From: a virus | Direction: 5' to 3' (one strand) | IMG/VR virus record: IMGVR_UViG_3300042946_001086 | Coordinates: 1 to 22,821 of that record | DNA length: 22,821 nucleotides | Shown: positions 9,001 to 22,241 of the stretch, piece after piece | Position numbering within the stretch: the stretch's first letter is position 1 | How the letters are laid out: every line of letters begins with the position of its first letter | Translations under genes and position numbers: made by a program | The notes under the pieces: generated by a model | What the model was told of the DNA's origin: nothing | What the model saw: only the letters and a program-made list of their open reading frames with translations | Databases searched by the model: none

Positions 9001-12000
9001 GTTGATATGCAAAAAACCGCTGCTGAATTTGTTGAAGCTAGTAATCAATTAGCAGTCAGCCCTAATGACAAGCTACGTAATAAAGCAGGGTTAGCAAAAG
9101 AACGTATCGCGCAGCTACAAAAACAAAGACAGAAATTAGTTGATGAGTTTGGCGATCCTACACCAGCGATTAAGCAAATGCTGGAAGTAACCAAGAGGGA
9201 AATAGAAAAAACTTTATCTGATTCAAGCATCACTTCTCAGCAAAGGAAGGTGACAGTACAGCAATTAAGGGAAACACAGGAGACACTTGAAAAGTCATTA
9301 GCAGAAGCGGAAAAGTTCAGCATTGCACCAATAGCTGACACAATGTACACTCAAGCGGTCGCAGCACTTAAAGACAATGAAGTTAAGTCCAATGTAGACA
9401 TCAGTAAAAATAAGATTGTCTCTAACCAGGCACAAGCTAGACTTTACGGAACTACCTTGACATCTCAGCAAATTGCGCCCGGCTTATCTGACAGACAGAT
9501 TGCAGATTTGACTTTTCAGCAAAAAGTATTAGAGCGTTCTTTGAAAATCAAGGAAGATAACTTATTGAAACTCCAAAACGCTGCTGCACAATCTCCAACC
9601 AACTTATCTCAAATACAAGAGGAAATTACCAAGCTTCAGCAGGAAATAGCGAAGGATAGGGAACAGGTAAGCCAAAATACTTTAGAGATTGTTAAAGCGC
9701 AACGAGAAGCTAGACAAGCGTTAATTGACCAGACTAAACAGGTAGCGGAATACTACCGGACATCTTTAAGGGAGTCCCAAGCTGCTGCTATTGAGTTTGA
9801 TAAAGCTACCAATAACATTAAGTCTCAACAGTTCGCTACTAAGCTGAAACAGGCTTTGGTTGGGGCTGGTAATAATATCTTTACCAACTTTATTGACAGT
9901 GTGATTGGGTTGTTCCAACAACTTACTGAAATTGAGAACTTACGTTTAGACAGGCAAAAACAGAAGTTAGATTATGAGAACAATATACAGGACATCCTGA
10001 TTAAAGTCACGGAAATGCAGCGTAGTCTACCGGGTAAGATTGTACCTTTTAGTCTTGATCAGATTCGTAACTTTGACAAGGAACTAGGAACTGTTAACAG
10101 CAGTGTGTCAGGTATCAACAAAGAAATTAACAGTGTTACAAAAAATTTAGGTGTAAGTGCAGTCAATTCTACTATACAACTTAATAAGCAATTAAAAGAG
10201 GTTCTTAGCACCGTAGAAAAGATAAATAAAGTAACTAGTAATCAGCAGCTACAACCACCAAACAACAGTGGTGTTTCTGGTGTTTCTCCAGTACCGATAT
10301 CTCAGAGAACAAAAATACCAGTAACACCTGAAGATGAGCAAATTTGGCGTGAGTTTGTTGCACCACAATCTGGTATTAAAAGCGGTACATCTAGTCTACC
10401 CACATCCACTCCGGTAGCTAATGCGCCTAAAGAGGTGTTGGTGGCTGGGCTTATGTCAGATATGGGCTATAGCTACTATTCTCAAGTCACTAAATTAAAA
10501 CCAAAGCTACCGGACAATGCTTTTTTGTCACCCATTGTGGGTAAGAACTTATCTAACATCATTAATACTAAATACCGACCTGAAGATTCCTTTGGGAAGA
10601 CCGGAGGGATTCGGTTTAATCAGAATATTGGGGTTGGTAAAAATACCAATATTCAATCTTCTGTAACTGGCATGGCTAGGCTTGTTGGTAATACTTTAGA
10701 GATTATCAAACAAACCAAGGGTGGCACTATTAAGCTGATTTATGAAGGGTTGAATATTCCCAGTGTTAAAAAGAATTTGAAACTCAATGACGGTGGTTCA
10801 GTTAATATCAATGCTGGGCAGTTAATTGGTACTTTAGCAGGGAATAACTTTAAGTTCCGCACAGAAGTCAATTCCTCTAATATGGACCCGTTAAAGGTTA
10901 TTAGGGATATTGAATATAAAAGATTAAATGCTTTTCAGAAAGCGGCTAGGTTTTTTGATCAGCCAAATAACACCGTAACAAATTTAGGTTTATTGCCAGA
11001 GCCAAAGCCGGTAGCAATATCTTCTACACCGTCTACACCACCTGTTAACCGGGCTATTAATTGGTTTAAAACAGAAGTCAAAAAATTTGTGAGAAAAAAT
11101 GCTCCTGAAGAGGTTAAGCGAGTCATCCGTAATACAAAGAATTTTGTTGATAATATTCCACCAATAATCCCTACGTATAATCAGAATACTAACAGCTACA
11201 ATCCTGGTATTTTGGATATTTTAATAGGCAATAATTCAAAACCAAAACCAAATCCAAAACCAAAACCAAATCCAAAACCAAATCCAAACAATAGTACTGG
11301 TAGTAGTAGAAATAACCAAAGCACTGGTAACAAGCCGACAACAACTAACCAAGGTAAAAGCGGTAGTGGAAATAACCAAGGTACTGGTAACAAGCCGACA
11401 ACAACTAACCAAGGTAAAAGCGGTAGTGGAAATAACCAAAGCACTGGTAACAAGCCGACACCAACTAACCAAGGTAATATATCAAATTTGTCTGGTGCAT
11501 TTCCACAGCCTAGCACTAGTGGGCTAACTACAGTAAGTAATACTGGAAACCAAATACCGCCAAATTTATCTGGTGCATTTCCACAGCCTAGCACTAGTGG
11601 GCTAACTACAGTAAGTAATACTGGAAACCAAAGTAATAAAATCAACAACCAGCAGACTAAACAAAATTTGACTGGACAACTACCACAAATACCACAGACA
11701 AGGCAACCCGTGGTAATTCCACCAGGCACTGATCCTTACACTAGATCACAATTGCAGAATCAGCCAAACCCTGATAAGTTACAAGGAGGTGTTGGAGAAG
11801 CTGGTAAGCTCGGTGTGGAAGCTGCTAAAAAAAGAGACGCTGCGGCTAGGTTGCAAAGGCAACAAGAAATAAGCGCAAAGCTGGTAGAGTTCCAAAGAAA
11901 TTTATCCAATCTATTAAGAGATACCAATAAAGGTATCAGAGATGAATCACTACAGGCTGCACAAGATATTAGTAATGCTTCTGAGTATATCCAAGGGCTG

Positions 12001-14106
12001 TTAAATCCCAATGCTTCTGATAAGGAAAAATTTGCTACTGACTTCCAAAAACTAAAGAATGAATACCAAGCAAGGATTAATGAACAACAGAATATTATTG
12101 AGTCTACAAGAGCGCCTCTTGCTGAATTAGCAAGGGTTGATGAGCTAATTGCTGCTGCTCAGAGAGAAGGTATAGATGCGTCAGGGCTAAAAAGATTAAG
12201 AGACGAAGTGTACAGAGTCGTTAAAGCAAGACAACAAACAGCGATCGCACTCCGCAATATGTACACCAAAAACAAGCAAGCGGTTTTTGATAAGTATGTA
12301 AGCAGATTTAAAGAGGAGCAATCAGATAAAGATGCTGATAGAAAAGCTGCTCTCTTGGGTGTAAATATCAGTCAATTAAAACTACGATTGGAAGAACTGA
12401 GAGGAATTCAAGCAATTGATCCTTTGAACCCTGAATTACTCAAGATACCTGACCTTGAAGCAAATATAGCTCAATTAGAATTAACTCAAACAACCCTCCA
12501 AAAAATAGCTGCACTTAGACGCGAGTGGCGACAATCAGGTGGTAAAAACATGGGTAAAGATGTTTATGACAAAAGAATGCAAGATATTAAGAATACTGTC
12601 ACAAAACAGACAGCAATCATTGAAAGAAAGCGTCGGACTGACAATATATTAGCTTATGTTAATCGTGAACTTGGATTGATAGATAAAGGGGCTGCTGAGA
12701 GAGAACCAATTACCAAGGGTTTACAGCTTGATAATAGTCTGTTTGCTGCTAGGAATAAGAACGGTTTAGTTAATATTATTAACTTTGAAAATGAAGCATT
12801 AATTAAACAAAAAGACTTGATGGACTCTTACAGAAAAACTAGCTTAGAGACTCAGCGCGACTTTAAATTATCTTCTGATGATAGAATCACAAAACGCCTA
12901 AGAAATGCTATGAATCTCCAAAAAGAATTAAATGTTTTGAAAATAGAAACTGAGTACCAAAAAGCGACTGGCGAGATTAAAAATAGACAGGTGACTGTAG
13001 ATGTGGAAGTGAGATTATCTGATTCTGCTAAGGCTATTTTTGAAAGCAAGAGTACCATTAAAAAGAATTTGGGATTGGAGTTGGCAGGGGAAAGATTAGA
13101 CCGTCAGAACGCAATCACGACTCAAGAGAATGAGTATAAGCGCAAACAGAATGAAACTAGTCAATTTATTCTGGACAATAACCTGACTGAGTCACAGGCT
13201 TATGTACTTAGAAAGAATAATGAAGTAGAGAATGATTTAAAGCTACGTACCATTAAATCCCAGTTCTCAGAGTTTGCACAACTAATTAAGTCCTTTGTAT
13301 CCGGATTTAAGAGTTCTTTTAAAGAGTTTCTACTCAGCACAGAAGACACAGGCACGGCATTAGTAAACCTGCTTAAAGGTATAGGTAAGTCTGTACTGGA
13401 TACTTTGGCAGAAATAGCATCTAAGCGTGTAACAGACTTGCTTTTTGGTTGGATGGGCGGGGCTGGGCTTAACCCGGCAACGGAATTATCTTTTGCTGCT
13501 CAACAACTTACTCAAGCAGCGATCGCACTACAGACAGCGGCGGGTGCTTCAGCCTTAGACTTGGGTATCTTTGATGGATTTGCTGGTTTTGGTGATATTG
13601 CTTCTTTTATCCCTACGGGTATGGAGTTCTTAGATCCTTCTACTTTTGGGGCTGCTGACTTTGGTTCAGCTATTTTATCAGGATTTGCTAAGGGTGGGAT
13701 GATTGATAAAGATACTCTTGGGAAGATTCAGAATTTTGCCAACGGGGGAATTGTGGGAACGATGAACAAGGAACGGGCTATGACAGGGAGGACACCGCAC
13801 TTGGTGGTCGCTTCTGAAGGTGAGCGCATCCTTAATCACAAAGAAACTGCTATTTGGAATAGGTTGCAATCAGGTATTTCTGGATTTGCTGATGGTGGTA
13901 TTGTCGGTGGTGGCTCTGGGGATATTGCTTCTAAGATTGGTAGCACTACAACGGTAAATGTGCCTGTAAGTGTGTCAGTCAATGAAGGTTCTGATGTAGA
14001 TGGGGCTAGATTGTCACAGACTGTACAGGCTCTTGTCAGTGATGGAATTAGGCGGGAGATGCGTCCCGGTGGCTCTATTCGCAGGGGTAATCCTTACGGT
14101 CGGTAA
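1..14106 (+). CDS. Giant phage tail tape measure protein (5' end outside window)
   Basis: Sets siphovirus tail length by scaffolding tail-tube assembly and usually leaves through the tail tip at infection. The frame is open from base 1 to TAA at 14104-14106 (4,701 residues), so the true start is probably upstream; the first in-window initiators are TTG at 7 and ATG at 127. Order of parts: zincin-like HEMFH (253-267); helical repeat pair (541-1188); hydrophobic stretch ending in a TMP-type ASPSGEGIDTGEN motif (1936 on); proline-rich spacers with tandem repeats (2560-3950); repeated charged helices (4681-5622); canonical TMP block with GKLSMEELRQQLGEKFPPA (6601-6660); hydrophobic segments near 6973-7050, 7381-7460, 7624-7700 and 8167-8274; coiled coils (about 8530-9760 and 11800-12650); degenerate M23-like domain (10591-10911); low-complexity repeats (11238-11631); GGIVG motifs and a typical TMP C-terminus (13273-14106). 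I saw no cysteine anywhere. TMP identity is very secure; the role of the first 2,000 residues is inferred. Confidence 0.95.
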   Translation, partial: DLLPGQLTGNNYNKLANLVLQLTGKTASQRQIPLLEKETDPSMAGMAGAYYRGDNKIRIHAKDYEALISSDVSKLSDDLIDTILHEMFHAIQYDFGKIKTVQEASMFSPSPTLKEMAKWSSVSEFSADRRRGKYSPEVVSATFDLELGAYSFGSRYTQQAKEALKTNTSLSQSVSGSPNQVAKEVQQLQQAALKVGKSHHDTLEKLRKMNLSDEAYNKYHSMANIVRDKGISFAESLDSVESLSPEEVQQAIEKFNKIVDYINNIPETVNQKPSEISRERQKSKSTPVAKAVQSSSLEQSKLPKELQQTILSFKQTYQDISGQIKTMNLPNDIYSQAHKAIEKGHNKGTELIEVLNNIQDLSPEQANSAMEKFNQYSAYLSNIPTTINKLISKPDEVVAQEQKAPVTPRASQSIQQSEFFRNIRQVVSGSANLKELATNIISAIVQTILNPVRKYISSFIAKVTTGFTDVTDQPIVAFKQNLPQQAGQALTNTYRTISPILPTQFQAVDTESRKWETEFNKKLKPNQSQNKFNQYIPSIPVKSTEVLTNVHRAVSPILPIQFQANDFDFHKQLNSGNSNLLNNPAVNQVVNTAKKLKSTTSFKEIGSNLISSLGQGFLSVSSGVLGIVTAFAKGILSAVKKVFRIASPSGEGIDTGENLAGSMGIGINNQAQTAVNAARNMAENVRNAIADPWDTPLPMNLVFKQDLDLENQAQAHIKATKEHFQKLKIQDLLSDIGVNFGADFGHEGITSNVLSSSDLLGYLSNKSASLTPLQNTVYNRLVDDFQEQRTLAAHHFAIARADGNPVDPAVLRGLDAGFNSILLRIVEFSKRLGIKGQSIDKLLASNQSVVNTAAYQPPRFVAPKTPIPERQPGQTDQEYSQAVKRALAEDNNNYRKAKNAYNRMILGVSNTPTPRRTQLPALPPVPVYAREIIEPVTNVPLVQRTQTTIPPIPDPWNDSVQQLVNTVRQTTRTQFLLPPARERLNINSFVQTQSNLQRLAKEIVAQQPMTQLSRPQPPTIQRTIPPIPDPWNDSVQQLVNTVRQTTRTQFLLPPARERLNINSFVQTQSNLQRLAKEIVAQQPMTQLSRPQPPTIQRTSPIILPRNFVPNPNAQILSSKNFVLNPNAQIISSQKFTPNPNAQIVSSQKFTPKPDAQLILPVVQGLSPAIRSTHSLAQNSISALIAANKQVQATIAGNKVTVSSRFAPIPDPWTTPPSQTVKQMAGQYGPIPDSWLTSPRSTQAFKQVGKLLIGQIPATLSSTVPSLIPQPAGTTAPKYVFPPQTLGSTVPAYTFPVNPTPKPPIAPVPPIPPTLLDQYLNLGTDLVTNIFNAVSASIRQSTLSGYASLGQVMRNAVNAALFSLADTLKQPLHQALLSQTRSILPWFLKFIPRSFQLLPKLSFAIPFVGGMVLRFGNSIVKNLLENNILKEGGFLTNLLSSITRVDLSALSGTKTAGVTGFLHNIVSPLPLLVGSRFNPLLSLGTLSASPLYDAFSGILGLDKSVKPNPKKQAPTIEQVLQNQTKINREKALLRDVKEVGTSTNISTGVGQNLTAYPDAQRTKAEESLKRAVESGKAIPKLDELTRKALRERGVRSFVRNQMDSAELLAERENILKNPLNATSKERDFLLYIADIKKLNATTEKERDKRIISILKERGKSDQDIENIRNSGAYALLDVGDDLIKNLPTITKQPTATQTVQPRTSSASIASKELVENLGNTLLNSVLNNLDVPVIPKSVIQKLIGKKMGERSATIADAINAFGTEKSKAEQLLTRNLESGNTKRLDGLTKQILRERGVTKSVRDAMTPEQLAAAREKITKSPIDLTARERKLLKFMGDFESHAATMGNDVATRKRDAMVMSVLQERGMSRDQRKQVQQSQGGQGLSSFADNLRDNPRTGGFMGRLTEAYASNDQDAMKGLVKEGLRKTGMSAKQIDAIDPKLLDTATAGLMTTLSGLQAKFREKGFDMGKALAKGLKDSMVNLANAKDDLEYNAKKVMGQANFGDSVGLIFRRMFRGTAATQGQFAEMYNQMGAGVKKAMFGGSKEGDEMFPNVLQFFGSIATTLAPITTMIGAITPLLLPLAPIITGIGMAVNMVAPHVAKLIDGIQRVEVLQRRFKFLGGSKEGGIAEFKYAKDIANKLNVPSEVAANSYSQLAIAAKDSKMEGQGVKDLFEGITSSLSALGINGQDASLVFMAYTQILAKGKLSMEELRQQLGEKFPPAMATFARAMGVTVPEMNELVASGGILSQDILPKVAKVLKEDYGSAASDQAGGLVVALNKLGNVGFEITTIFTDKLGGTLAFFVNTFANILGVLSGALKELIPLVKSFMIGFAATISIGLTIILSKFGPFVVAMKSLQNFLLATFSAITTNMMPMVIGIVSDVADGWLGAEKNLIDNMFQGINNMIVVVFSTIDTAMRSMSDHQVSFGTVFGGLIQGAEQAGSIIDWLKGVFAGFFKILPSGIVEILAIVFMLEQGTGLLVMALWPAIKGLWGGITGIFGATAKAFYGVMGSLKAVVELMMTSSAVASNATNNVAKSGVRSMAIVQGALGFLSKALLHFGLAYAVLMFSKGDFSDPLRESINKSTADINKHLNQVRLNINQTTEAFNKATKSVEKLGNTITHALPAKGVQLDVRSLWGGGDWKWDDAVRETNAKYRQGGSGPSAMDVIGTGALYAGGAGYAAAAGSKAIKAIVDLAVKTAPILASNAALGSAPGPRMAVPLFGRLATAIAPVVAIMGPWGLAIAGLIATIVAVGVALDAFAPKITEAQLNTEEKGGLPEEIKQIINAKKAGERLDASSMQVIKLYKDQQLSNERLKEFMASIGLDGKNPYSFVARPVVPMTQEQKEEFEDTDPVKNITKSIEDKKASLQELEKNAGTTETEKSKARSKQGYKTVQEELTKLEKDKLLMQLSFMANYDNKSRMDAIDEQIKAKEKEIANHRSTHQYIDTRVGRRDPENRAKIAVRQGLTKELEKLQKEKAALQININASAQRRVNYDAIKKIDVDMQKTAAEFVEASNQLAVSPNDKLRNKAGLAKERIAQLQKQRQKLVDEFGDPTPAIKQMLEVTKREIEKTLSDSSITSQQRKVTVQQLRETQETLEKSLAEAEKFSIAPIADTMYTQAVAALKDNEVKSNVDISKNKIVSNQAQARLYGTTLTSQQIAPGLSDRQIADLTFQQKVLERSLKIKEDNLLKLQNAAAQSPTNLSQIQEEITKLQQEIAKDREQVSQNTLEIVKAQREARQALIDQTKQVAEYYRTSLRESQAAAIEFDKATNNIKSQQFATKLKQALVGAGNNIFTNFIDSVIGLFQQLTEIENLRLDRQKQKLDYENNIQDILIKVTEMQRSLPGKIVPFSLDQIRNFDKELGTVNSSVSGINKEINSVTKNLGVSAVNSTIQLNKQLKEVLSTVEKINKVTSNQQLQPPNNSGVSGVSPVPISQRTKIPVTPEDEQIWREFVAPQSGIKSGTSSLPTSTPVANAPKEVLVAGLMSDMGYSYYSQVTKLKPKLPDNAFLSPIVGKNLSNIINTKYRPEDSFGKTGGIRFNQNIGVGKNTNIQSSVTGMARLVGNTLEIIKQTKGGTIKLIYEGLNIPSVKKNLKLNDGGSVNINAGQLIGTLAGNNFKFRTEVNSSNMDPLKVIRDIEYKRLNAFQKAARFFDQPNNTVTNLGLLPEPKPVAISSTPSTPPVNRAINWFKTEVKKFVRKNAPEEVKRVIRNTKNFVDNIPPIIPTYNQNTNSYNPGILDILIGNNSKPKPNPKPKPNPKPNPNNSTGSSRNNQSTGNKPTTTNQGKSGSGNNQGTGNKPTTTNQGKSGSGNNQSTGNKPTPTNQGNISNLSGAFPQPSTSGLTTVSNTGNQIPPNLSGAFPQPSTSGLTTVSNTGNQSNKINNQQTKQNLTGQLPQIPQTRQPVVIPPGTDPYTRSQLQNQPNPDKLQGGVGEAGKLGVEAAKKRDAAARLQRQQEISAKLVEFQRNLSNLLRDTNKGIRDESLQAAQDISNASEYIQGLLNPNASDKEKFATDFQKLKNEYQARINEQQNIIESTRAPLAELARVDELIAAAQREGIDASGLKRLRDEVYRVVKARQQTAIALRNMYTKNKQAVFDKYVSRFKEEQSDKDADRKAALLGVNISQLKLRLEELRGIQAIDPLNPELLKIPDLEANIAQLELTQTTLQKIAALRREWRQSGGKNMGKDVYDKRMQDIKNTVTKQTAIIERKRRTDNILAYVNRELGLIDKGAAEREPITKGLQLDNSLFAARNKNGLVNIINFENEALIKQKDLMDSYRKTSLETQRDFKLSSDDRITKRLRNAMNLQKELNVLKIETEYQKATGEIKNRQVTVDVEVRLSDSAKAIFESKSTIKKNLGLELAGERLDRQNAITTQENEYKRKQNETSQFILDNNLTESQAYVLRKNNEVENDLKLRTIKSQFSEFAQLIKSFVSGFKSSFKEFLLSTEDTGTALVNLLKGIGKSVLDTLAEIASKRVTDLLFGWMGGAGLNPATELSFAAQQLTQAAIALQTAAGASALDLGIFDGFAGFGDIASFIPTGMEFLDPSTFGAADFGSAILSGFAKGGMIDKDTLGKIQNFANGGIVGTMNKERAMTGRTPHLVVASEGERILNHKETAIWNRLQSGISGFADGGIVGGGSGDIASKIGSTTTVNVPVSVSVNEGSDVDGARLSQTVQALVSDGIRREMRPGGSIRRGNPYGR
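157..465 (+). other. Zincin-like metallopeptidase domain inside the TMP
   Basis: The protein reads DTILHEMFHAIQYDFG with HExxH at 253-267 (two His ligands plus catalytic Glu), followed 35 residues later by SEFSADRR with Glu at 370-372, a plausible third zinc ligand of a gluzincin. A further ELGAYSFGSR segment lies at about 436-465. HExxH preceded by hydrophobic residues and followed by a helix with a downstream E is the standard zincin pattern. Seen: the motif and spacing. Inferred: peptidase activity, either self-processing of the giant TMP or cleavage of a host surface or periplasmic protein during ejection. I could not assign a specific peptidase family. Confidence 0.6.
541..1188 (+). repeat. 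Pair of about 95-residue helical repeats in the TMP
   Basis: Two diverged protein repeats lie at about 541-822 and 904-1188, separated by a short charged linker. Both begin with a KE(V/L)QQ motif, share a K-x-MNL segment, and end in (S/D)LSPEQ-type, A-x-EKFN and YL/I-x-NIP motifs followed by a KP(S/D)E tail. The pattern suggests duplicated helical bundles. DNA identity is low, so the duplication is old. Confidence 0.75.
1465..1701 (+). repeat. Short duplicated segment, LTN-x(4)-SPILP-x-QFQA
   Basis: The segment ALTNTYRTISPILPTQFQA (from 1465) recurs as VLTNVHRAVSPILPIQFQA (from 1636), with starts 171 bases apart. It lies between the zincin-proximal repeats and the hydrophobic ASPS-containing part of the TMP. 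Function unknown; it looks like a duplicated short structural motif. Confidence 0.65.
2842..3291 (+). repeat. 225-bp tandem duplication with only synonymous differences
   Basis: Two direct units, 2842-3066 and 3067-3291, each encode the same 75 residues, starting TIPPIPDPWNDS and ending PQPPTIQR. By eye they differ at six bases in five codons (CTA/TTA, CTA/TTG, CCT/CCA, TCG/TCA, CAG/CAA), all synonymous. They lie in the proline-rich spacer. The pattern indicates a duplication since kept identical at protein level by purifying selection. Confidence 0.9.
3316..3480 (+). repeat. Four 14-residue tandem repeats, (N/K)F(V/T)xNPNAQI
   Basis: Units at 3316-3357, 3358-3399, 3400-3441 and 3442-3480 encode NFVPNPNAQILSSK, NFVLNPNAQIISSQ, KFTPNPNAQIVSSQ and KFTPKPDAQLILP. 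The period is 42 bases. They directly follow the 225-bp duplication and precede further PIPDPW and PIPDSW motifs, forming one extended, probably unstructured or polyproline-like spacer. Confidence 0.85.
4681..5622 (+). repeat. Charged helical repeats of about 110 residues in the TMP
   Basis: Two repeats, about 4681-5001 and 5290-5622, share the order KAE-x(2)-L, LRERGV, VR-x(2)-M, A-x-RE-x-I-x(2)-(N/S)P, T-x(2)-ER-x(2)-L, then (I/V)L(K/Q)ERG-x-S-x-DQ. A weaker third copy of the first half may start near 5743 (LRKTGMSAKQIDAIDPKLL). They are rich in Arg, Lys and Glu and probably form helical hairpins just before the canonical TMP block. Confidence 0.65.
6136..6990 (+). other. Canonical tape-measure N-terminal block (TMP_3 / TIGR02675 type)
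   Basis: This stretch holds the pattern that usually identifies phage tape measure proteins: an AKDIANKLNVP-type helix, GITSSLSALG, GKLSMEELRQQLGEKFPPA, FARAMGVTVPEMNELVASGG, and LPKVAKVLKEDYG followed by LNKLGN. In typical TMPs this block sits near the N-terminus; here it begins about 2,040 residues into the visible protein. Assignment is from memory of the family consensus and is strong. Confidence 0.88.
10591..10911 (+). other. Degenerate M23 (lysostaphin/LytM-like) domain in the TMP
   Basis: The order of strands matches M23 peptidases: FGKTGGIRF in place of H-x-G-x-D, SSVTGMARLVGN in place of A-x-G-x-V-x(2)-GN, a GGTIKLIYEGL strand pair, INAGQLIGTLAG in place of V-x-x-GQ-x-IG-x-x-G, then FKFRTEV with DPLKVI in place of HLHFEV with DPL. 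The zinc-binding His and Asp of both motifs appear replaced (Thr, Arg, Lys, Arg), so the fold looks kept and catalysis lost. M23 domains are known in several phage TMPs. The fold assignment is inference from pattern. Confidence 0.5.
11238..11289 (+). repeat. Lys-Pro/Asn-Pro dipeptide repeat
   Basis: Repeated AAACCA and AATCCA hexamers encode a KPKPNPKPKPNPKPNPN tract, a rigid polyproline-like spacer beginning the low-complexity stretch between the M23-like domain and the C-terminal coiled coil of the TMP. Confidence 0.9.
11311..11475 (+). repeat. 60-bp tandem repeats (NNQxTGNKPTTTNQGKSGSG)
   Basis: Three units start at 11311, 11371 and 11431; the last is cut short after AACCAAGGTAAT. Units are nearly identical in DNA (AAGC versus GGTA near position 9, and ACA versus CCA later), so the expansion is recent. 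They encode a polar Asn/Thr/Gly/Lys linker. Confidence 0.92.
11485..11631 (+). repeat. 78-bp tandem repeat (NLSGAFPQPSTSGLTTVSNT)
   Basis: Two units begin at 11485 and 11563. The shared 69 bases differ at one visible synonymous position (TTG/TTA Leu); unit 1 ends GNQIPP and unit 2 runs into GNQSNK. This continues the low-complexity linker of the TMP. Confidence 0.9.
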
Positions 14107-14113
14107 TGGGAAT

Positions 14114-14295
14114 GTACAGGCAAGATGCCTGTACCACGATTTATAGTGTTTATGGGATGGGTGGTTAAAATGTACGGGTGAGAGTTAAGTGTATAAGCAA
14201 GATGCCTGTACCACAATTTATAGTGTTTATGGGATGGGTGGTTAAAATGTACGGGTGAGAGTTAAGTGTACAGGCAAGATGCCTGTACCACAATT
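14114..14295. repeat. 77-bp tandem repeat carrying a 9-bp-stem hairpin, between convergent genes
   Basis: Units start at 14114, 14191 and 14268 (the third is only its first 28 bases). Each opens with GTACAGGCA-AGA-TGCCTGTAC, a perfect 9-bp stem with a 3-base loop in copies 1 and 3. Copy 2 reads GTATAAGCA on its left arm, which weakens the stem. Units 1 and 2 differ at three of 77 bases. The block occupies nearly all the gap between the TMP stop (14106) and the minus-strand small gene (14301). The hairpin resembles abundant intergenic repeats of Nostoc-type genomes. It could act as a bidirectional transcription stop, but no T tract follows it. Confidence 0.9.
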
Positions 14296-14300
14296 GGTGG

Positions 14301-14456
14301 TTATTCTGCTAATGGTAAGTTGGCTAATTCAGATATTGGGGGATTGTCTACAAATTCTTGAATCACTTGCTCTGTAGTCTCTTGGTTGATATTTAAACTA
14401 CTCATCAATGATTCTAATGGTGGTAGTTCTTCTGGTGGCGGGGTAAATTTACTCAT
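14301..14456 (-). CDS. Small acidic, proline-rich protein (51 aa), unknown function
   Basis: Reading the minus strand from ATG at 14456 gives 51 codons to TAA at 14303-14301. The protein begins MSKFTPPPEELPPLESL, then carries a helix-like NQETTEQVIQEFVDNPP stretch and ends LANLPLAE. It is acidic, has no cysteine and no membrane segment. Its start overlaps the last eight bases of the upstream membrane-protein gene (ATGAGTAA), a classic coupled arrangement, which is the main argument that it is real. It is the last gene of the minus-strand set before the 77-bp repeats. I do not recognise it. It could be a small structural or assembly cofactor. Confidence 0.6.
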   Translation of the reverse strand: MSKFTPPPEELPPLESLMSSLNINQETTEQVIQEFVDNPPISELANLPLAE

Positions 14457-14637
14457 TCTTTTTAGGCTCTTTTGATACGGCTAAACCAGCACTACCGGAC
14501 GCTAACGCTAAGGCAATATTAAATGCACCATTGGCTTTTGTGTCTGATAGATCAGGGACTATCATTGTAACTATGGTGATGATTGCACTAAGCAAAGCAA
14601 ATACTACGGGAACAAAGTCGTTTAATTTGTCTTTCAT
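14449..14637 (-). CDS. Small two-helix membrane protein (62 aa), holin-like in form
   Basis: Sixty-two residues: short charged N-terminus (MKDKLNDF), a strong membrane segment at about residues 8-28 (FVPVVFALLSAIITIVTMIVP), a polar turn (DLSDTKANG), a second hydrophobic segment at about 37-54 and a charged tail KEPKKNE. Size, two segments and a basic C-terminus fit small phage holins or other inner-membrane phage proteins, but no lysin is adjacent, so holin is only a possibility. The start codon overlaps the stop of the portal-MuF gene (ATGA, 14637-14634), and its own end overlaps the next small gene, so the three minus-strand genes should be co-translated. Confidence 0.75.
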   Translation of the reverse strand: MKDKLNDFVPVVFALLSAIITIVTMIVPDLSDTKANGAFNIALALASGSAGLAVSKEPKKNE

Positions 14638-16529
14638 AAACTGGGCAATATTGGTGATTTTGAATAATACTTAACACATTTGCAGTTAGCTCGACACTGA
14701 CAGTTCTCTCCTGGATTTGGTAATGTACCTATCTTTGCCCATCCCATACTGCTGTAACGGATACAGTCACTACAGCTATGACTAGCAGCTATAACCCGAC
14801 GTTCCCACAAGTATCCGTTTCTGCTATGCCCTTCTAGTTTACCATCTTCATAAAAATGCCTGGTTTTGTTGTAGTACATTTGCGCTCTAGCAGCTATCTG
14901 GGCTTCTGATAATTCACCACGGATAATTTCATTGGAAAATCCTCGCAAATATTGATACTGTAAGTTGAGTTTACCGCTTAATTCAGCATGGTCGCGCCAG
15001 TCCATTTGTTTTAGTCCGCCTATACCAAGTGAGTATTGGTACAAGGAAACATCTCTGATTAGTTCTGCGGTTTGTCGTTCCCATGTACTGACGTTGATTT
15101 TCCCTGATAGTAAGTTGTCGGTAACTTTATTACCCATCTTCAATGTGTCTGCTATGGCTTTCTCTGTGATTCTGACTACATCTTTCTCTCTGACAAATTG
15201 ACCTTGTTTATTCCCGTTGGCATATTGATATCTTTGGCTAGATGAGTTCCAATAAAAGCTAGTTGACTCTTGGGCGGCTTTAATTGCTACCCTTTGGTAC
15301 TTTTTTTCACTAGCTACCTCCTTAATCTCTTCTAATGGTGCTATTCCTGCTAGTTCCCTCATTCTATTGATTACAGCTAAGTCGTCAATACTAAATGCGC
15401 CTGTGCTTATACAGTTATTGACAATATTTAAGAGTGATATGACATCTTCGTTGTCCTGTGAATTAATAGGAAAAATCCCGTAATTTTCTTGTTCCCCAAG
15501 ATTAAATTCAATCATGGGACGGATCACTTGTTCAATCAAGACATCCCCCACTAATTCCATCTGTGACTTGATGACTAAATCCAAGATACCCCTATGCCCA
15601 GCGTTGAGGTTACTGTCACCACTGCTAATTGCACCTGTACCTGTGACGGTTCTAGGTACTAACCAGGACAACATGATCATGGACTCTAAGTAGCCTAGGA
15701 TGTTCATGAAAAAGCTACCATCGGTTTCGTGAGCGATCGCAAAGATATCATCAGCAATATCAATGACTGCATAAGAATTATTTTTCATGTCGTCTAAATT
15801 CTTAGACATAACATAAGCTTGGTTAAACAGCCTAGGCTCTCCCGTGGCAGGGTCTAAGAAAGCATACCCGGTTTCAGGATTAACCATAGTGACAGAGTTA
15901 TTGGCTGTGTCAGTTTTGGCTACCAGTAGTTTAGTGGCTTGTCTTTCTGATGCGATCGCCATACAAGCGTTGACTATTTTCATTAATTCCCAGTATGGGT
16001 ATGCTCTTCTACATATTGCTACTCCATAAGGGTCGCCTCCCAGTGCTAAGTATGGTTGATTGATTAAATGAATACCGTTCTCATAAGGGATATAAATATC
16101 AGCATTTCTCATGTAGTGAACTGTTTTGATACTGCCGGAATATCCTTCAAACCAATAATAACGCGGGTCTATGGTACGGATTTTGTCTAAATAAGCTACC
16201 CGTTTTTTGATGATGTAACTAACTTCTGAAAATGAACGTCCAAAGGGAATAAATGTTAAGAGTTCGGCAATTACGTTAGACCAACTTCCTTCCATCTGGT
16301 TAATAGATGACCTAACAAAATGTTCAATGTTTTCATCTGGATGTTGATATTTCCCTAGTAAAGATACACCTAATAATGTTCTTAAATCATTGGCTGCGGA
16401 GGCTACAGGGGAATCTTTGAGCATCTCCACATATTTATCTGTAATGTTTCTATCTGACTGTTGAATCATCCCAATCCAAGTGGAAACTAAGGCTTGAACT
16501 TTGGGAGATAATAAATTTGTATTTAACAT
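14634..16529 (-). CDS. Phage portal protein fused to MuF-like head morphogenesis domain (631 aa)
   Basis: Residues 1 to about 400 resemble the DUF935/Mu gp29 portal family: WIGMIQQSDRNI near the start, WSNVIAELLTFIPFGRSFSEVSY in the typical place of the portal wing, a WLVPRTVTGTG segment, then GHRGILDLVIKSQMELVGDVL and IRPMIEFNLG. Portals form the dodecameric DNA channel at the head-tail vertex. From about residue 430 a second part resembles the Mu F / head morphogenesis domain, ending in SCSDCIRYSSMGW, LPNPGENCQCRANCKC with Cys 586, 589, 610, 612, 616 and 618, probably a metal-binding knuckle. ATG at 16527-16529 is the first start after the divergent promoter region; no clear Shine-Dalgarno sequence. 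The gene is reversed relative to the tail genes on both sides. The portal call is good; the exact family is from memory. Confidence 0.82.
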   Translation of the reverse strand: MLNTNLLSPKVQALVSTWIGMIQQSDRNITDKYVEMLKDSPVASAANDLRTLLGVSLLGKYQHPDENIEHFVRSSINQMEGSWSNVIAELLTFIPFGRSFSEVSYIIKKRVAYLDKIRTIDPRYYWFEGYSGSIKTVHYMRNADIYIPYENGIHLINQPYLALGGDPYGVAICRRAYPYWELMKIVNACMAIASERQATKLLVAKTDTANNSVTMVNPETGYAFLDPATGEPRLFNQAYVMSKNLDDMKNNSYAVIDIADDIFAIAHETDGSFFMNILGYLESMIMLSWLVPRTVTGTGAISSGDSNLNAGHRGILDLVIKSQMELVGDVLIEQVIRPMIEFNLGEQENYGIFPINSQDNEDVISLLNIVNNCISTGAFSIDDLAVINRMRELAGIAPLEEIKEVASEKKYQRVAIKAAQESTSFYWNSSSQRYQYANGNKQGQFVREKDVVRITEKAIADTLKMGNKVTDNLLSGKINVSTWERQTAELIRDVSLYQYSLGIGGLKQMDWRDHAELSGKLNLQYQYLRGFSNEIIRGELSEAQIAARAQMYYNKTRHFYEDGKLEGHSRNGYLWERRVIAASHSCSDCIRYSSMGWAKIGTLPNPGENCQCRANCKCVKYYSKSPILPSL

Positions 16530-16587
16530 CTTTGAGCTATTAATTAATATTAATTATATGCTATCATAAACACAAAGTATATTTATT
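16530..16587. promoter_or_regulatory. Divergent promoter region with a 16-bp perfect palindrome
   Basis: This 58-bp gap separates the portal-MuF gene (leftward) from the gpK-like gene (rightward) and must hold starts for both units or read-through from elsewhere. TAATTAATATTAATTA at 16541-16556 is a perfect palindrome. A TATAAT hexamer lies on the minus strand at 16558-16553, 24 bases before the portal ATG; a weaker TATCAT at 16562-16567 could serve the plus strand. No good -35 is seen for either. The palindrome could be a repressor operator or simply AT-rich sequence. Confidence 0.4.
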
Positions 16588-17352
16588 ATGACAATGATTT
16601 CTGATTTAATTAAGGAACAAATCAAATCTTTAATTATTAGTGACTCTATTGAGTCTTGCGGGTTGATTATTCATAACCAGGTTGTTTCTTTACCCAATTC
16701 TCACAGTGACCCTGTTGATAACTTTGCTATTGCTTCTAAAGATTTAGCTAGATTTAACTATTCTCAAATCAAAGCTTTTTGGCATACCCACTGTAATGAC
16801 ACTCAACCTGGTTACTTTACTTACACCGATATTGAGATGAGTCGTCAAACTCAAAAACCAATTATCCTTTATCACACGGTGTTTGATATGTGGGACTACT
16901 ATGAACCAAATAATCCCAACCCGTTTCCACTTAATTTTATAAATTACACGCCTAAACAAATAGAATTTTATCAAGGCATTCCTTTTTACTGGGGACGCTC
17001 TGATTGTTTCTCTATTGGTAGATGTTATTTTTTAGGTATGCTGGGTGTAGATGTAGGCGATTTTCAACGTTCTCATCTTGATAATTTTCCGCCAGACAAC
17101 TATCAATGCCCTTTTGACTTTGACCACCAACTACGATTAATGCCTATAGGGACTAAAGCAGAAGTTCATGATGTATTTGCGATCGCATTGAGGGGAGGGT
17201 TACAGGTCAATCATGCAGCTATTTTAGTGGATGCAGAAAAGAATTTGATTCTTCACTCTATGTCACAAAAATCTCTGAGTAAAATTGAACCTTATAATAG
17301 ATACTTAAGAGAAAGAACCATTAGCCATTACAGATTAAAGTGCTTATGCTGA
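16588..17352 (+). CDS. Tail tip assembly protein gpK-like: JAB/MPN + NlpC/P60 (254 aa)
   Basis: Two peptidase-like domains in lambda gpK order. The N-terminal JAB/MPN part has Glu22 (ESCGL), His66 and His68 (FWHTHC), Thr78 and Asp81 (TYTD), which match the JAMM metal site except that the usual Ser is Thr. The C-terminal NlpC/P60 part has Cys140 in YWGRSDCFSIGRCY and His209 in GGLQVNHAAIL, with LILHSMSQKS after it, matching gpK homologues. The protein probably acts in tail tip assembly and may cleave peptidoglycan during entry. First gene of the rightward tip operon; ATG at 16588 (a second ATG lies two codons later) with no clear Shine-Dalgarno sequence. Its end overlaps the gpI-like gene. Confidence 0.9.
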   Translation: MTMISDLIKEQIKSLIISDSIESCGLIIHNQVVSLPNSHSDPVDNFAIASKDLARFNYSQIKAFWHTHCNDTQPGYFTYTDIEMSRQTQKPIILYHTVFDMWDYYEPNNPNPFPLNFINYTPKQIEFYQGIPFYWGRSDCFSIGRCYFLGMLGVDVGDFQRSHLDNFPPDNYQCPFDFDHQLRLMPIGTKAEVHDVFAIALRGGLQVNHAAILVDAEKNLILHSMSQKSLSKIEPYNRYLRERTISHYRLKCLC

Positions 17353-17921
17353 CAACTATTAAATTAAATGGTATTTTGGGGACTAAGTTTGTACCTGAAA
17401 TTCAGGGTAACTTAAACACAGTACGAGAAGTAATTAATTTTTTATGTTGCAACTTTTCTGACTTTAAACATTATGTATTGGGTTCAGATTGGTATTATAC
17501 AGTAGTAGTTAAAGGAAACAATTGGGAACGGTATATATTGGAAGATTCACCCAGTATTCTCTTGCCTGTAAGCGGTTGCGTAATTGAGATTACCCCTGTT
17601 ATTGAAGGTTCTGGAAAGACTTTAACTAATATTGCCATGATTGGTATTGGGATAGCCTTGGTTGCTACAGGGGTGGCTGCGCCATTGGGAATGTCTTTAA
17701 TTTATAGTGGTGCTACTGGATTACTTAATTCTATTATTAATGGCAATCCTAAAGAAGATGCTAAGTCTACTTTTTTCCAGTCTTCTGGTTTTAATACTAA
17801 AGAGGGTACACCTATTCCTTTGGTATTTGGTGAAGTATTAGTTAAAAACTTTCAGGTAATTTCTCTGGAAATAACTTCAGAATTTGCGCCGGGTTGGAAA
17901 TATAAAACAGGTTCTAAGTAA
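17346..17921 (+). CDS. Tail tip assembly protein gpI-like (191 aa)
   Basis: An N-terminal ubiquitin-like part (IKLNGILGTKF, LNTVREVINFL, LPVSGCVIEITPVIEGSG) is followed by a Gly/Ala-rich hydrophobic helix pair (IAMIGIGIALVATGVAAPLG) and a C-terminal GTPIPLVFGEVLV-x(6)-ISLEI segment. That order is diagnostic for the lambda tail assembly protein I family, and length is close to lambda gpI. I prefer ATG at 17346, which overlaps the gpK-like stop (ATGCTGA) and has AAAG five bases upstream; an in-frame GTG at 17340 would add two residues. The K-I-J order matches lambda. Confidence 0.88.
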   Translation: MLTTIKLNGILGTKFVPEIQGNLNTVREVINFLCCNFSDFKHYVLGSDWYYTVVVKGNNWERYILEDSPSILLPVSGCVIEITPVIEGSGKTLTNIAMIGIGIALVATGVAAPLGMSLIYSGATGLLNSIINGNPKEDAKSTFFQSSGFNTKEGTPIPLVFGEVLVKNFQVISLEITSEFAPGWKYKTGSK

Positions 17922-17942: not shown

Positions 17943-19769
17943 ATGGGATTTGCAAATAGAGCGCTTTCCAAAAACCCAATTACTGACCCAGTTACAGCAA
18001 CTTCTAATGATTATGTCAAGTTGCTATTAGCTATTGGTGAAGGCGAATTGGAAGGGATGACTTCTTTGTCTAATATCTACCTTGATAAAACACCATTAGT
18101 TAATAGTGATGGTTCGGCTAATTTTCTTGATGTATCTGTTGACTATAGCATCGGTGGACCCAATCAGTCTAATGATTCTTTCGTGACAAACTTGGGGATA
18201 TCAAATAGTAATGTCAACACTGTTAATACAGAGATAAAAAATATTGGCGATGGGACGACAAGACAAATCTCAAATGCTGATATTACTGCAATTAAAGTCC
18301 GCCTAAGTCTTCAAATGCAGTACAACGATAAAAATGGTGATGTTAGAAAAACTGATTGTTGCTTCAAAATTTTTATTAAAGAAGGAGGAGGTGCGTTTGT
18401 AGAAAGATACTCTACTTGCATCAACGCTAGGTACGCTGACCCAGTGACTTTTGAGTATTATTTTCCTGTTGATCCTACTCAAAGCAGCTTTCAAGTCCGG
18501 GTGCAAAAAACTGTACCCAATGAACCGCCCAACCCTGACAACAGAGAAAGTAGAGAAAGTGTCAATTTGAAATGGATAGACTACTCAGAGATTAATAATG
18601 ACCGGATTTTATTTACCAATACAGCATTACTGGCTTTGCAGTTTCCATCTAAAACTTTCCAATCAATACCGGAAATTTGGATGAAATTAGGTGGGATTAA
18701 ATGCCGGATACCTAGTAATGCTACTGTCAACGCTGCTGATAGGGGAACGGATTTTAGTGGTAGTTGGAATGGTGGCTTTTATCTACCTGTTAAAGCGACT
18801 GCTGACCCGGCTTGGATTGTCTATTATCTATTAACTGAGCCTAGATTTAAGTTGGGTATCCCAGAGGAGTATATTGATAAGTTTGCTTTGTATCAATGCA
18901 GTGTGTATAACAATGGGTATGTGGACAATGGCTATGGGGGACTAGAGAGAAGATTTCTGTTTAATACGGTTTTAGGCACGGGTGGGCAAGAAGTAGTTAT
19001 AGAGATGATTCGTTCTATCTGCTCTACTATGTATGCTAAACCTTATTGGAACGGCACGCAGTTAAGCTTTTGGCAGGATAGACCGACCACTGCATTACCG
19101 AAAATATTAACTAATGCAGATGTAGAGGAGGGTAAATTTGCTTATCAAACCAAAGAACTCAACACTGTAACTACTGTGGCTAAAGTATCTTATCAATCTA
19201 CCATTGAGGACTGGGAACAAATACCAGAAATTGTAGAAGACCCAGCTTCTATTGATAGATATGGAGTCCAAATTGAAGAATACGCTCTATTAGGAGAAAC
19301 CCGTCGGGGGGCTGCTATTCGGTCAGGGAGAAGGACTATTTTTAGTTCTTTACCTAATAATATATTTCTGACCTGTAAAGTGCGGGCGCGGGCTATGTTC
19401 TTTCAACCCGGTGATGTAATTCAAGTATCTGATAGTGCTAAAAACAAAGTGAGAATTGGTGGTTTAGTTTCTGCTGTAACTACCACTAAAGTAACTTTAG
19501 ACGCGCCTGTAACGTTAACATCAAATACTAATAAAAAAATATATTTAACTCTGCCAGATGAGACAGTAGTTGAAAGAACTATTACCAATGGTGCAGGAAC
19601 TTTTACAGAAATTAATTTCAGTACACCATTGACTACATTACCGCAAATTCAATCACCATGGCAGATCATTGATACTAGCAATAAAGTACAATTGTACAGG
19701 GTCACTGATGTAGTCCCAGACTCAGAAAATAAGTCTTTATTTGAGATAACTGCTAAAACTTATGGTTGA
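17943..19769 (+). CDS. Tail tip central hub / host specificity protein gpJ-like, N-terminal portion (608 aa)
   Basis: This corresponds to the conserved N-terminal and middle parts of lambda gpJ. Signs are the DYVKLLLAIGEGELEG opening, the SIGGPNQ-type segment, the WMKLGGIKCRIPSNA and FSGSWNGGFYLPVKATADPAWIVYYLLTEPRFKLG stretch, EMIRSICSTMYAKPYWNGTQLSFWQDRP, and the FFQPGDVIQVSD and LYRVTDVVPDSENKSLFEITA ends. The protein forms the trimeric tip hub that closes the tube. Lambda gpJ is about 1,130 residues; this one stops right after the FEITAKTYG segment, where family members normally run on into FNIII domains, and the next gene starts there. ATG at 17943 lies 21 bases after the gpI-like stop; the leader is AT-rich with no clear Shine-Dalgarno sequence. 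Confidence 0.92.
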   Translation: MGFANRALSKNPITDPVTATSNDYVKLLLAIGEGELEGMTSLSNIYLDKTPLVNSDGSANFLDVSVDYSIGGPNQSNDSFVTNLGISNSNVNTVNTEIKNIGDGTTRQISNADITAIKVRLSLQMQYNDKNGDVRKTDCCFKIFIKEGGGAFVERYSTCINARYADPVTFEYYFPVDPTQSSFQVRVQKTVPNEPPNPDNRESRESVNLKWIDYSEINNDRILFTNTALLALQFPSKTFQSIPEIWMKLGGIKCRIPSNATVNAADRGTDFSGSWNGGFYLPVKATADPAWIVYYLLTEPRFKLGIPEEYIDKFALYQCSVYNNGYVDNGYGGLERRFLFNTVLGTGGQEVVIEMIRSICSTMYAKPYWNGTQLSFWQDRPTTALPKILTNADVEEGKFAYQTKELNTVTTVAKVSYQSTIEDWEQIPEIVEDPASIDRYGVQIEEYALLGETRRGAAIRSGRRTIFSSLPNNIFLTCKVRARAMFFQPGDVIQVSDSAKNKVRIGGLVSAVTTTKVTLDAPVTLTSNTNKKIYLTLPDETVVERTITNGAGTFTEINFSTPLTTLPQIQSPWQIIDTSNKVQLYRVTDVVPDSENKSLFEITAKTYG

Positions 19770-20430
19770 CTTCTATGCTTTAGTTGAAACTAATATTGTC
19801 ATTCCTGGCGACATTACTGTGGAAACTTTGCCAGTGGTTGCGTCACCACCAATTAATTTAAAGTCAGAGTTAATTAAAATTAATTATGGAAACACTGATA
19901 TTTACGCTTTATTAGCATCTTGGCAGCAACCTCGGAAAGAACTTATTAACAGCACTTTTACAGTTGCCAGTATGACTTTTTTGGGAATAACAGCGACAGT
20001 GACTACATCACAAAATCACAAATACAATACTAATGACTTAATATTAATTAAAGGGGCTACTCAATTAATCTATAATAATTATTATACTATTACTAAAATC
20101 AGTAATAATCAATTTAGTTTTCCTTTTTCTGGATGGACCATTACCCCAGCTACGGGAACTATTACCTGTACAAAAATAGTTAACGAATCTTACACCGACC
20201 GCTACAGTTTACAATACAAGAAAGCCCAAGATTCAGAATGGAGTAGTCCTCTTGAAACCTTTGAATTGTCCGCTAGATGGGATAACGTTAGTCCAGGGGA
20301 TTATTATGTAAGAATAGCTGCTATTACTATTAATAATAAAGTTAGTGCTTATGTACAATCATTAATTGTTCCACAAGCGATCGCTGACTTTAGTAATGGA
20401 AATTATACAAGTTTTACAGGAGAGTTTTGA
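19762..20430 (+). CDS. gpJ C-terminal-like protein: FNIII domain with an inserted beta domain (222 aa)
   Basis: The start YALVETNI continues the gpJ pattern broken by the previous stop; the ATG overlaps it (ATGGTTGA, 19762-19769) in another frame. Residues about 30-60 (PPINLKSELI, ALLASWQQP) and 141-203 (YTDRYSLQYKK, SEWSSP, PGDYYVRIAAI) are two halves of an FNIII-like fold. Between them, at about 66-138, lies a separate beta-rich module (ATVTTSQNHKYNTNDLILI, NNYYTITKISNNQFSF, GTITCTK) of a type common in phage tip proteins. It likely assembles with the gpJ-like hub and may help receptor contact. The HIP1 site at 20377 encodes Ala-Ile-Ala near the C-terminus. Confidence 0.75.
   Translation: MVDFYALVETNIVIPGDITVETLPVVASPPINLKSELIKINYGNTDIYALLASWQQPRKELINSTFTVASMTFLGITATVTTSQNHKYNTNDLILIKGATQLIYNNYYTITKISNNQFSFPFSGWTITPATGTITCTKIVNESYTDRYSLQYKKAQDSEWSSPLETFELSARWDNVSPGDYYVRIAAITINNKVSAYVQSLIVPQAIADFSNGNYTSFTGEF
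20418..20424 (+). promoter_or_regulatory. Shine-Dalgarno site of the gpM-like gene
   Basis: AGGAGAG lies five bases before ATG at 20430 and is the clearest ribosome binding site in the window. It decides the start of the gpM-like gene in favour of ATG 20430 over TTG 20427. Confidence 0.65.
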
Positions 20431-20768
20431 TGACTGTACCTATCCTGATGCTACCACCAATTAAATGGGATTTTTCTATTAATAAAACTATCTTTCAACA
20501 AACTACAAAATTGGGAGATGGTTATAGTCAAATACTAACTGCGCCTAATTCAGTTAGAATAGTTTATGATATAGTTATCCCTAACTTAAATACTCAATCT
20601 AAAAATGATGTTACGACTACTTTTAAGCAATACGGAGCTATTACTAGATTCAGATGGCGACCCAATGAATATTATGAATATAAAGAATTTATTTGTGATA
20701 AATGGAGCGTCACGAATCAAGGTACTTACTTATGGGAAATAACAGCAACTTTTAACCAACAATTGTAA
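20430..20768 (+). CDS. Minor tail protein gpM-like (112 aa)
   Basis: Matches the phage minor tail protein family of lambda gpM in length and motif order: TTKLGDGYSQ in place of RFGDGYSQ, a middle amphipathic helix ending TTFKQYGAITRFRWRPNEYY in place of LEEHGGWKSFLWTPPYEW, then FICDKWSV and a final WEITATFNQQL strand. gpM-like proteins join the distal tube to the tip complex. Start ATG 20430 overlaps the preceding stop by one base (TGATG) and follows a good Shine-Dalgarno site. In lambda, M lies between H and L; here it follows the gpJ parts. Confidence 0.85.
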   Translation: MTVPILMLPPIKWDFSINKTIFQQTTKLGDGYSQILTAPNSVRIVYDIVIPNLNTQSKNDVTTTFKQYGAITRFRWRPNEYYEYKEFICDKWSVTNQGTYLWEITATFNQQL

Positions 20769-21385: not shown

Positions 21386-22240
21386 ATGGCACAACCAATT
21401 TTAGGAATCAAAGGAACAGCGGAATACGTCAAAGCTACAGGAGAAGGTACACCAGAGTCTCCTTACATTCCCGTTGTTCAGGTAGAAGGTGGTGGTACAG
21501 GGGGAGGCGGAACTACTACTGTGGACTTTGGCACTAAAATCACTGATTCCACTATGCCCGCAGGTGGTGTAGGTAATCTAGGGTGGCTATCTGCTATTTG
21601 GAGAACAATTACCGACAGATTGCCTTCACTGATAAACAACAGATTACCAGTAGACGTAACAAATCAAATTAGCTTTGGCACTCAAATTACTGATGCAACC
21701 ATGCCCACGGGTGGGGGAGGTATCCTGGGGTGGCTATCTGCTATTTTTAAGACACTAAGCAACGAAACTGGATTTGTCAGTACAGCAACCATTCAAAGAA
21801 CGTCAGGGAATACATCTTATCAACTCAATGATGTATATGGCTCAATAGTCCAATTGTCAAATATTGGACCTAGTGGGGGTAGTATTTTTATTAATAATAT
21901 AAAAATCATGTTTAACACTTCCACGCCTCCCACTGGAATGACTAGCCTTGTAATTTATTTATACAGTGCTTCACCCCCATCTGCGATCGCTGACAATTCC
22001 CTTTTTAATGGCGCATCTGTTGATAGAAATTTTCACTTAACTGAAGATGGAATTACTTTACCAATTGTGACGATGAGAGGTAGTGGTAGTTTTTTTGCCA
22101 TGGCATCAAACATCAACAGGCAGGTTAAATTAGCCACAGGTAGCACTTCTTTGTGGGCGTACTTAGTAACTTCAACTTCATTTGCACACACAGACAACAT
22201 AGAGACAGGTACAATCACTATAAATTCTTTTGTGGCATAA
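21386..22240 (+). CDS. Tail tip/fibre-associated protein, paralogue 2 with internal duplication (284 aa)
   Basis: Begins MAQPILGIKGTAEYVKATGE, matching the tag of the preceding protein, followed by SPYIP, a Gly-rich linker and two copies of FGTxITDxTMPxGGxGxLGWLSAI at 21527-21610 and 21674-21757 (49 residues apart). The C-terminal part repeats the paralogue's domain: YQLNDVYGS, QLSNIGPSGGS, IMFNTS, LYSASPPSAIADNSLFN, VKLATGSTSLWAYLVTS. ATG 21386 is chosen because similarity to the paralogue starts there; an upstream TTG at 21305 would overlap the preceding gene and add unrelated residues. Function is inferred only: structural tip or receptor-binding component. Confidence 0.75.
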   Translation: MAQPILGIKGTAEYVKATGEGTPESPYIPVVQVEGGGTGGGGTTTVDFGTKITDSTMPAGGVGNLGWLSAIWRTITDRLPSLINNRLPVDVTNQISFGTQITDATMPTGGGGILGWLSAIFKTLSNETGFVSTATIQRTSGNTSYQLNDVYGSIVQLSNIGPSGGSIFINNIKIMFNTSTPPTGMTSLVIYLYSASPPSAIADNSLFNGASVDRNFHLTEDGITLPIVTMRGSGSFFAMASNINRQVKLATGSTSLWAYLVTSTSFAHTDNIETGTITINSFVA

Positions 22241-22241
22241 C

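Follow-up and report, generated by a model that had tools for sequence, protein, structure and literature searches.

An inverted portal-MuF gene block between the TMP and gpK-like genes, shared by three clades of uncultured viruses related to freshwater cyanophages

The analysed DNA, hereafter the window, was the complete IMG/VR virus record IMGVR_UViG_3300042946_001086 (22,821 bp). A portal-MuF gene and two coupled small genes were located on its minus strand, between the TMP gene and a gpK-like gene on the plus strand; the sequence-only reading had given these coordinates and strands correctly. The locus comprised the following features:

1-14106, plus strand: TMP gene, 3' 4701 codons, start cut off by the contig end (Pfam TMP_3, E = 2.6e-26 in 5401-8400)
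14107-14300, no strand: intergenic junction at which the two strands converge, with a tandem repeat of 77 bp holding the palindrome GTACAGGCAAGATGCCTGTAC; putative bidirectional terminator or insulator
14301-14456, minus strand: 51-aa acidic ORF, last gene of the minus-strand block, overlapping the 62-aa ORF by 8 nt
14449-14637, minus strand: 62-aa ORF with two hydrophobic stretches, joined to the portal gene by an ATGA stop-start overlap
14634-16529, minus strand: 631-aa fusion of a portal (Portal_Mu) and a C-terminal MuF-like domain that carries a Cys cluster
16530-16587, no strand: divergent AT-rich spacer of 58 bp between portal and gpK
16553-16558, minus strand: TATAAT, facing the portal gene
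16559-16567, plus strand: extended -10 TGCTATCAT, facing gpK
16588-17352, plus strand: gpK-like minor tail protein (phrog_30, E = 6.5e-23)
17340-17921, plus strand: gpI-like tail assembly protein (phrog_32, E = 5.1e-24)
17943-19769, plus strand: gpJ-like central tail fibre protein (phrog_31, E = 5e-113; Pfam FNIII-A_GpJ and Phage-tail_3)
20427-20768, plus strand: gpM-like minor tail protein (Pfam Phage_min_tail, E = 7.8e-11)

Matches to TMP_3, phrog_30, phrog_32, phrog_31, Phage_min_tail and Phage_tail_L identified a lambda-like siphovirus tail module, with all tail genes on one strand, broken only by the portal block; the canonical siphovirus late operon (terminase-portal-protease-capsid-tail on one strand) was not found. 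The near-identical contig G001 (44 kb, protein-identical to the window across the shared region) encodes the complete TMP of 6228 aa at 14988-33674 (L030-L031). TMP lengths in relatives were 5772 aa (G002 and G004), 6123 aa (G005) and 5846 aa (G007), compared with 2761 aa in G010 and about 4416 aa in phage CrV-01T. Tail length follows a rule of approximately 0.15 nm per TMP residue, by which tails near 0.9 μm are predicted. An HExxH motif (TILHEMFHAIQ) was located within the TMP frame at 1-600, with a SprT-like match below threshold (E = 0.003), and a peptidase domain inside the TMP is possible. A repeat-rich, propeller-like protein of the g353 family is encoded at 22230-22821 and at L032:1798-2859; its gene, on the minus strand in CrV-01T and inverted beside TerL in one of the clades described below (clade C), may be a mobile adhesin-like gene.

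The portal part of the fusion protein was assigned by Pfam Portal_Mu (PF06074), which matched residues 35-378 (E = 7.1e-24) at 85.2 bits against a curated cut-off of 23.9; phrog_113 also matched the portal (E = 5e-16), and these profile hits settle its identity. Residues 422-623 were matched by phrog_24776 (function unknown, E = 1e-39). This C-terminal domain, in which the Cys cluster is conserved, was 36-37% identical to CrV gp007, encoded directly after the CrV-01T portal gene, and a Pfam search of the portal-MuF protein returned no MuF family match. For the 62-aa ORF no Pfam family was matched at 0.01, and a single weak PHROG match of unknown function was obtained at 0.05; by topology only, the product is holin-like. 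The 51-aa ORF was conserved across clades A, B and C. Differences at codon positions 1/2/3 were counted as 115/77/304 for the portal gene (clade A versus B; the strongest bias of the three), 4/1/26 for the 62-aa ORF (within clade A) and 18/11/32 for the 51-aa ORF (clade A versus B), and since a codon-position bias was seen in each, all three ORFs look coding. Each record contained one portal match, which rules out the block as a duplicate portal copy.

Relatives were collected by querying IMG/VR with the portal, the MuF domain, and portal alignments including the outgroup. By portal identity to the window they fell into three clades: A (95-100%), B (about 76%) and C (71-72%). The minus-strand portal gene was located between TMP and gpK in the window and in 16/16 further contigs spanning both (L002-L013, L016 and L052-L054; portal 71-100% identical, three clades), with 0 exceptions, and an empty TMP-gpK site was found in none of the A/B/C contigs examined. 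Every A/B/C sequence is a metagenome contig, which leaves some room for an assembly artefact or chimera, but identical junctions recur in many contigs from different metagenomes and across three diverged clades, which makes such an origin extremely improbable. The natural recombinant G005 (IMGVR_UViG_3300044616_001576; L011, L034, L035 and L073) argues in the same direction: its terminase-to-tail-tube genes are of clade A, its portal and tail tip of clade B, and the order is retained, so that recombination between clades kept the gene order. The arrangement is therefore real and inherited: all close relatives have it, and neither a recent insertion nor an assembly error accounts for it.

Fuller contigs (G001, the 100-kb G002 and many more) supplied the head genes. 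Their order was TerL (minus), HTH (minus; in clade B taken from the ORF list), protease (plus), MCP (plus) and a DUF4054 connector (minus), followed by further connectors, tail tube, TMP (plus), the portal block (minus) and gpK-gpI-gpJ (plus). The strand of TerL varies, minus in clades A and B but plus in clade C; apart from it, portal-MuF and the DUF4054 connector are the only minus-strand head genes, and protease, capsid, most connectors and the tail genes run on the plus strand. The head genes are thus split: the shell genes run with the tail, and portal-MuF and DUF4054 run opposite. The "head gene set" that the sequence-only reading had seen in the block accordingly shrinks to portal-MuF and two small ORFs, the protease and capsid genes of the relatives lying elsewhere on the plus strand. 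That reading had also named, as the sign of an ancestral order, most relatives sharing the arrangement with all head genes on the minus strand; the arrangement was indeed common to the relatives, but protease and capsid were not on the minus strand. It had also spoken of related prophages; evidence for a prophage was not seen in the window, and both this record and the relatives found for it are viral contigs with kinship to freshwater cyanophages.

Several further observations were made on these contigs. The DUF4054 connector gene, whose start overlaps the start of its divergent neighbour, occupies the minus strand between MCP and the connector that follows in G001 (L030:10522-10935), G002, G010, G011 and G014. 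In clade C, the TerL frame of G011 (approximately 94057-96753, L100-L101) is 911 aa long and carries an in-frame insert directly behind the Walker A GSGK; the insert ends HN before S, intein-like, and is absent from G014. HIP1 sites (GCGATCGC) numbered 11 in the window, 24 in the 44 kb of G001 and 49 in G010, were also numerous in G002 and G003, and amounted to 0 across the 100 kb analysed of CrV-01T; their abundance points to a cyanobacterial host. The genome-contig search returned only a spurious 17-residue match in Dolichospermum, the plasmid search gave 0 matches, and no tRNA was detected in the scanned contigs.

At the convergent end of the block, the repeat cluster claimed earlier was confirmed as 77-bp direct repeats (14113-14308). 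Repeats with an internal palindrome, coinciding exactly with where the block ends on its 3' side, are what a recently inserted or inverted cassette bounded by a repeat cluster might show. Relatives with the identical arrangement nevertheless lack them: the window and G001 carry them and L005 has a related version, whereas L006 and all of clade B have junctions of 29-34 bp without them and L003, L004 and L007 have other sequence. Within IMG/VR, the exact 25-nt repeat unit was found, beyond the window, only in the near-identical G001. The opposite end of the block carries no matching repeat, and the arrangement is older than about 28% portal divergence. A mobile cassette bounded by these strain-specific, one-ended repeats is thus very unlikely, and the repeats, absent from most relatives, are better read as a later local expansion in or near a terminator than as a cassette edge. 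The palindrome had no exact match in one Dolichospermum genome searched for it as a host repeat.

Each lineage has a hairpin at this junction, and these hairpins are unrelated in sequence between lineages. In clade B the hairpin is AAAAAGCGGGATTTGCCCGCTTTT with the arms AAAAAGCGGG-CCCGCTTTT (z about -5 to -6.6), in clade C a stem flanked by A and T tracts (z about -2 to -4), in L003, L004 and L007 AAACCGC-GCGGTTT, and in L006 a perfect 12-bp stem (z about -5). The GTACAGGC palindrome array of the window reached z -4.7 on the minus strand, the plus-strand fold being no better than shuffles. A classical terminator ending in a T-run was not found in the window. That one hairpin has taken the place of another at the same site suggests that a stop acting on transcripts from both sides has been selected for.

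The divergent start region proposed earlier corresponds to the AT-rich spacer between portal-MuF and the gpK-like gene, which contains the palindrome-like ATTAATTAATATTA. Its length is 58 bp in the window, and relatives reach about 95 bp. The sequence TATGCTATCATA, which holds the extended -10 TGCTATCAT, is kept in clade B and most of clade A with differing flanks, and TGTGCTATATT stands at the matching position in most of clade C. As a two-hexamer promoter consensus scan gave fewer sites than shuffles, it is this conservation that suggests promoter activity of the spacer. A search for a promoter motif common to TerL, DUF4054 and the portal gene returned only short AT-rich or Shine-Dalgarno-like words.

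The direction of the change was judged from outgroups. The closest of these, G010 (IMGVR_UViG_3300049491_000955, 82 kb; portal 59%, TerL 66% and MCP 63% identical), is the only outgroup genome with a closely homologous portal, and is probably circular, as gpJ seems to continue from one contig end into the other. Its genes follow the order portal-MuF, TerS/TerL, protease/MCP and TMP, all on the plus strand. Like the A/B/C group, it has DUF4054 on the minus strand; unlike it, G010 carries portal-MuF on the plus strand, about 3 kb ahead of TerL, and orders the tail-tip genes differently. Portal and MuF of G010 are in different frames, joined at a nine-T run (AGTTTTTTTTTAAAG, L094:10685-10710), and no start codon stands early in the MuF frame, for which slippage, frameshifting or an assembly indel may account. 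In CrV-01T (MH636380) and Cr-LKS4 (OQ625504) the order is TerL-portal-MuF, all on the plus strand, and in S-CBS4, vB_BpsS-36 and GBK1 portal/MuF share the capsid/TMP strand. Outgroup portal/MuF genes thus lie upstream of the tail genes, mostly adjoining the terminase.

A tree of five tail genes united A, B and C (100/100) against G010, G012 and CrV, and a TerL tree likewise recovered A+B+C (83/86); with the group monophyletic in both, one event suffices. In the portal tree, which has very distant roots, G010 joined clade C (99/99) and A+B+C was not resolved, and in the MuF tree A+B+C was neither resolved nor rejected (p-AU 0.46). For this reason the polarity is drawn from the trees of the tail genes and TerL, together with the state shared by the outgroups. 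An inverted portal as the ancestral condition, with the plus-strand portal of the outgroups derived, would agree with the presence of the arrangement in all A/B/C members and with the portal tree, which requires two changes and leaves room for a reversion in G010. However, portal/MuF lie on the capsid strand, mostly beside TerL, in CrV-01T, Cr-LKS4, S-CBS4, vB_BpsS-36, GBK1 and G010, and the five-gene and TerL trees place G010 outside A+B+C, so that this polarity is distinctly unlikely. Given outgroups whose portal/MuF lie on the capsid strand and upstream of the tail, the inverted state appears derived, old and fixed, and a single translocation with inversion in the A+B+C ancestor is the simplest reading and a probable one. 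Of the rearrangement suggested by the sequence-only reading, a derived translocation and inversion is thereby retained on the basis of the outgroup strand, but not the idea that a head gene set was inverted locally or recently; the arrangement can be called ancestral for the A/B/C group only.

Among known systems, CrV-01T and Cr-LKS4, both Cylindrospermopsis phages, encode homologous connectors, tail tube, TMP and gpI/gpJ/gpK, and resemble the group in an HTH gene divergent from the capsid gene and in a scrambled late order. They differ from it in having portal and MuF as separate plus-strand genes beside TerL, and in other capsid, portal and terminase families (HMM search negative). In the cyanosiphovirus vB_AphaS-CL131 of Aphanizomenon (MG209611), an HTH-type regulator is similarly divergent from the protease, but a putative 1393-aa portal lies upstream on the plus strand and DUF4054 is also on the plus strand; portal and terminase of this phage are reported by its authors to flank the structural region on opposite sides, contrary to the usual order (PMC6293099). 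Synechococcus phage S-CBS4 (HQ698895) shares a terminase opposite to the capsid/tail strand and a MuF-like domain 30% identical, and differs in its separate plus-strand portal and MuF genes upstream of the capsid gene. A limited literature search returned no portal inverted between TMP and gpK. Scrambled late order in cyanosiphoviruses is known already, and the portal inverted between these two genes appears to be a further form of it.

The preferred reading, held at a probability of about 0.8, is that portal-MuF, the 62-aa membrane-like ORF and the 51-aa ORF form a conserved minus-strand mini-operon that was moved and inverted ancestrally and has its own transcription unit; from its sequence features, the block looks like a self-contained one. 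In the common ancestor of A, B and C, the block would have been transferred from upstream of the capsid/tail genes and inverted into the TMP-gpK gap. A leftward transcript would begin in the 58-bp spacer, cover portal-MuF and the two coupled ORFs and terminate at the hairpin junction, which would also end the rightward TMP transcript, and the same spacer would hold a separate rightward promoter for gpK-gpI-gpJ. Most likely the portal product does nothing unusual: it would form the dodecameric ring of the packaging vertex, and its MuF-type domain would sit in the head. The scheme builds on what the sequences show, namely gene content, strands, conservation, the derived polarity, the conserved -10-like box and the junction hairpins; we infer from these the promoter activity in each direction, termination, protein function and any benefit of separate portal expression.

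Why the block stayed there is a separate matter. Neutral shuffling, which is compatible with the mini-operon reading, has about even odds: late gene order would be loose, and the portal site merely tolerated once a promoter and terminator were present. The variable TerL strand (A/B versus C), the inverted g353-like adhesin gene of clade C, the gap of some 17 kb by which TMP follows the tail tip in CrV-01T and the CL131 portal apart from its terminase agree with this, whereas the portal position is fixed throughout A/B/C while other genes moved, and a hairpin is retained at the convergent end in each lineage. A more specific proposal, which we regard as rather unlikely, is a stepwise transfer of packaging-vertex genes to the strand opposite shell and tail, with DUF4054 first (shared with G010), portal-MuF next (A/B/C ancestor) and TerL last (A/B), giving a separately controlled "packaging" set. 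Against it count the flip of the tail adhesin-like g353 gene in clade C, the likewise flipped TerL of S-CBS4, the choice of the gene set after seeing the data and the lack of a shared promoter motif; if true, it would mean that portal supply is set apart from capsid and tail supply.

Siphovirus late genes usually form one co-directional operon of well-kept order, on which gene callers and classifiers rely. The uncultured freshwater cyanophage group described here broke the rule for the portal and retained the break through three clades. Being conserved, the break implies that the usual order is not required for assembly, and the group offers a natural case for asking whether the portal dose must be separate from the dose of capsid and tail.
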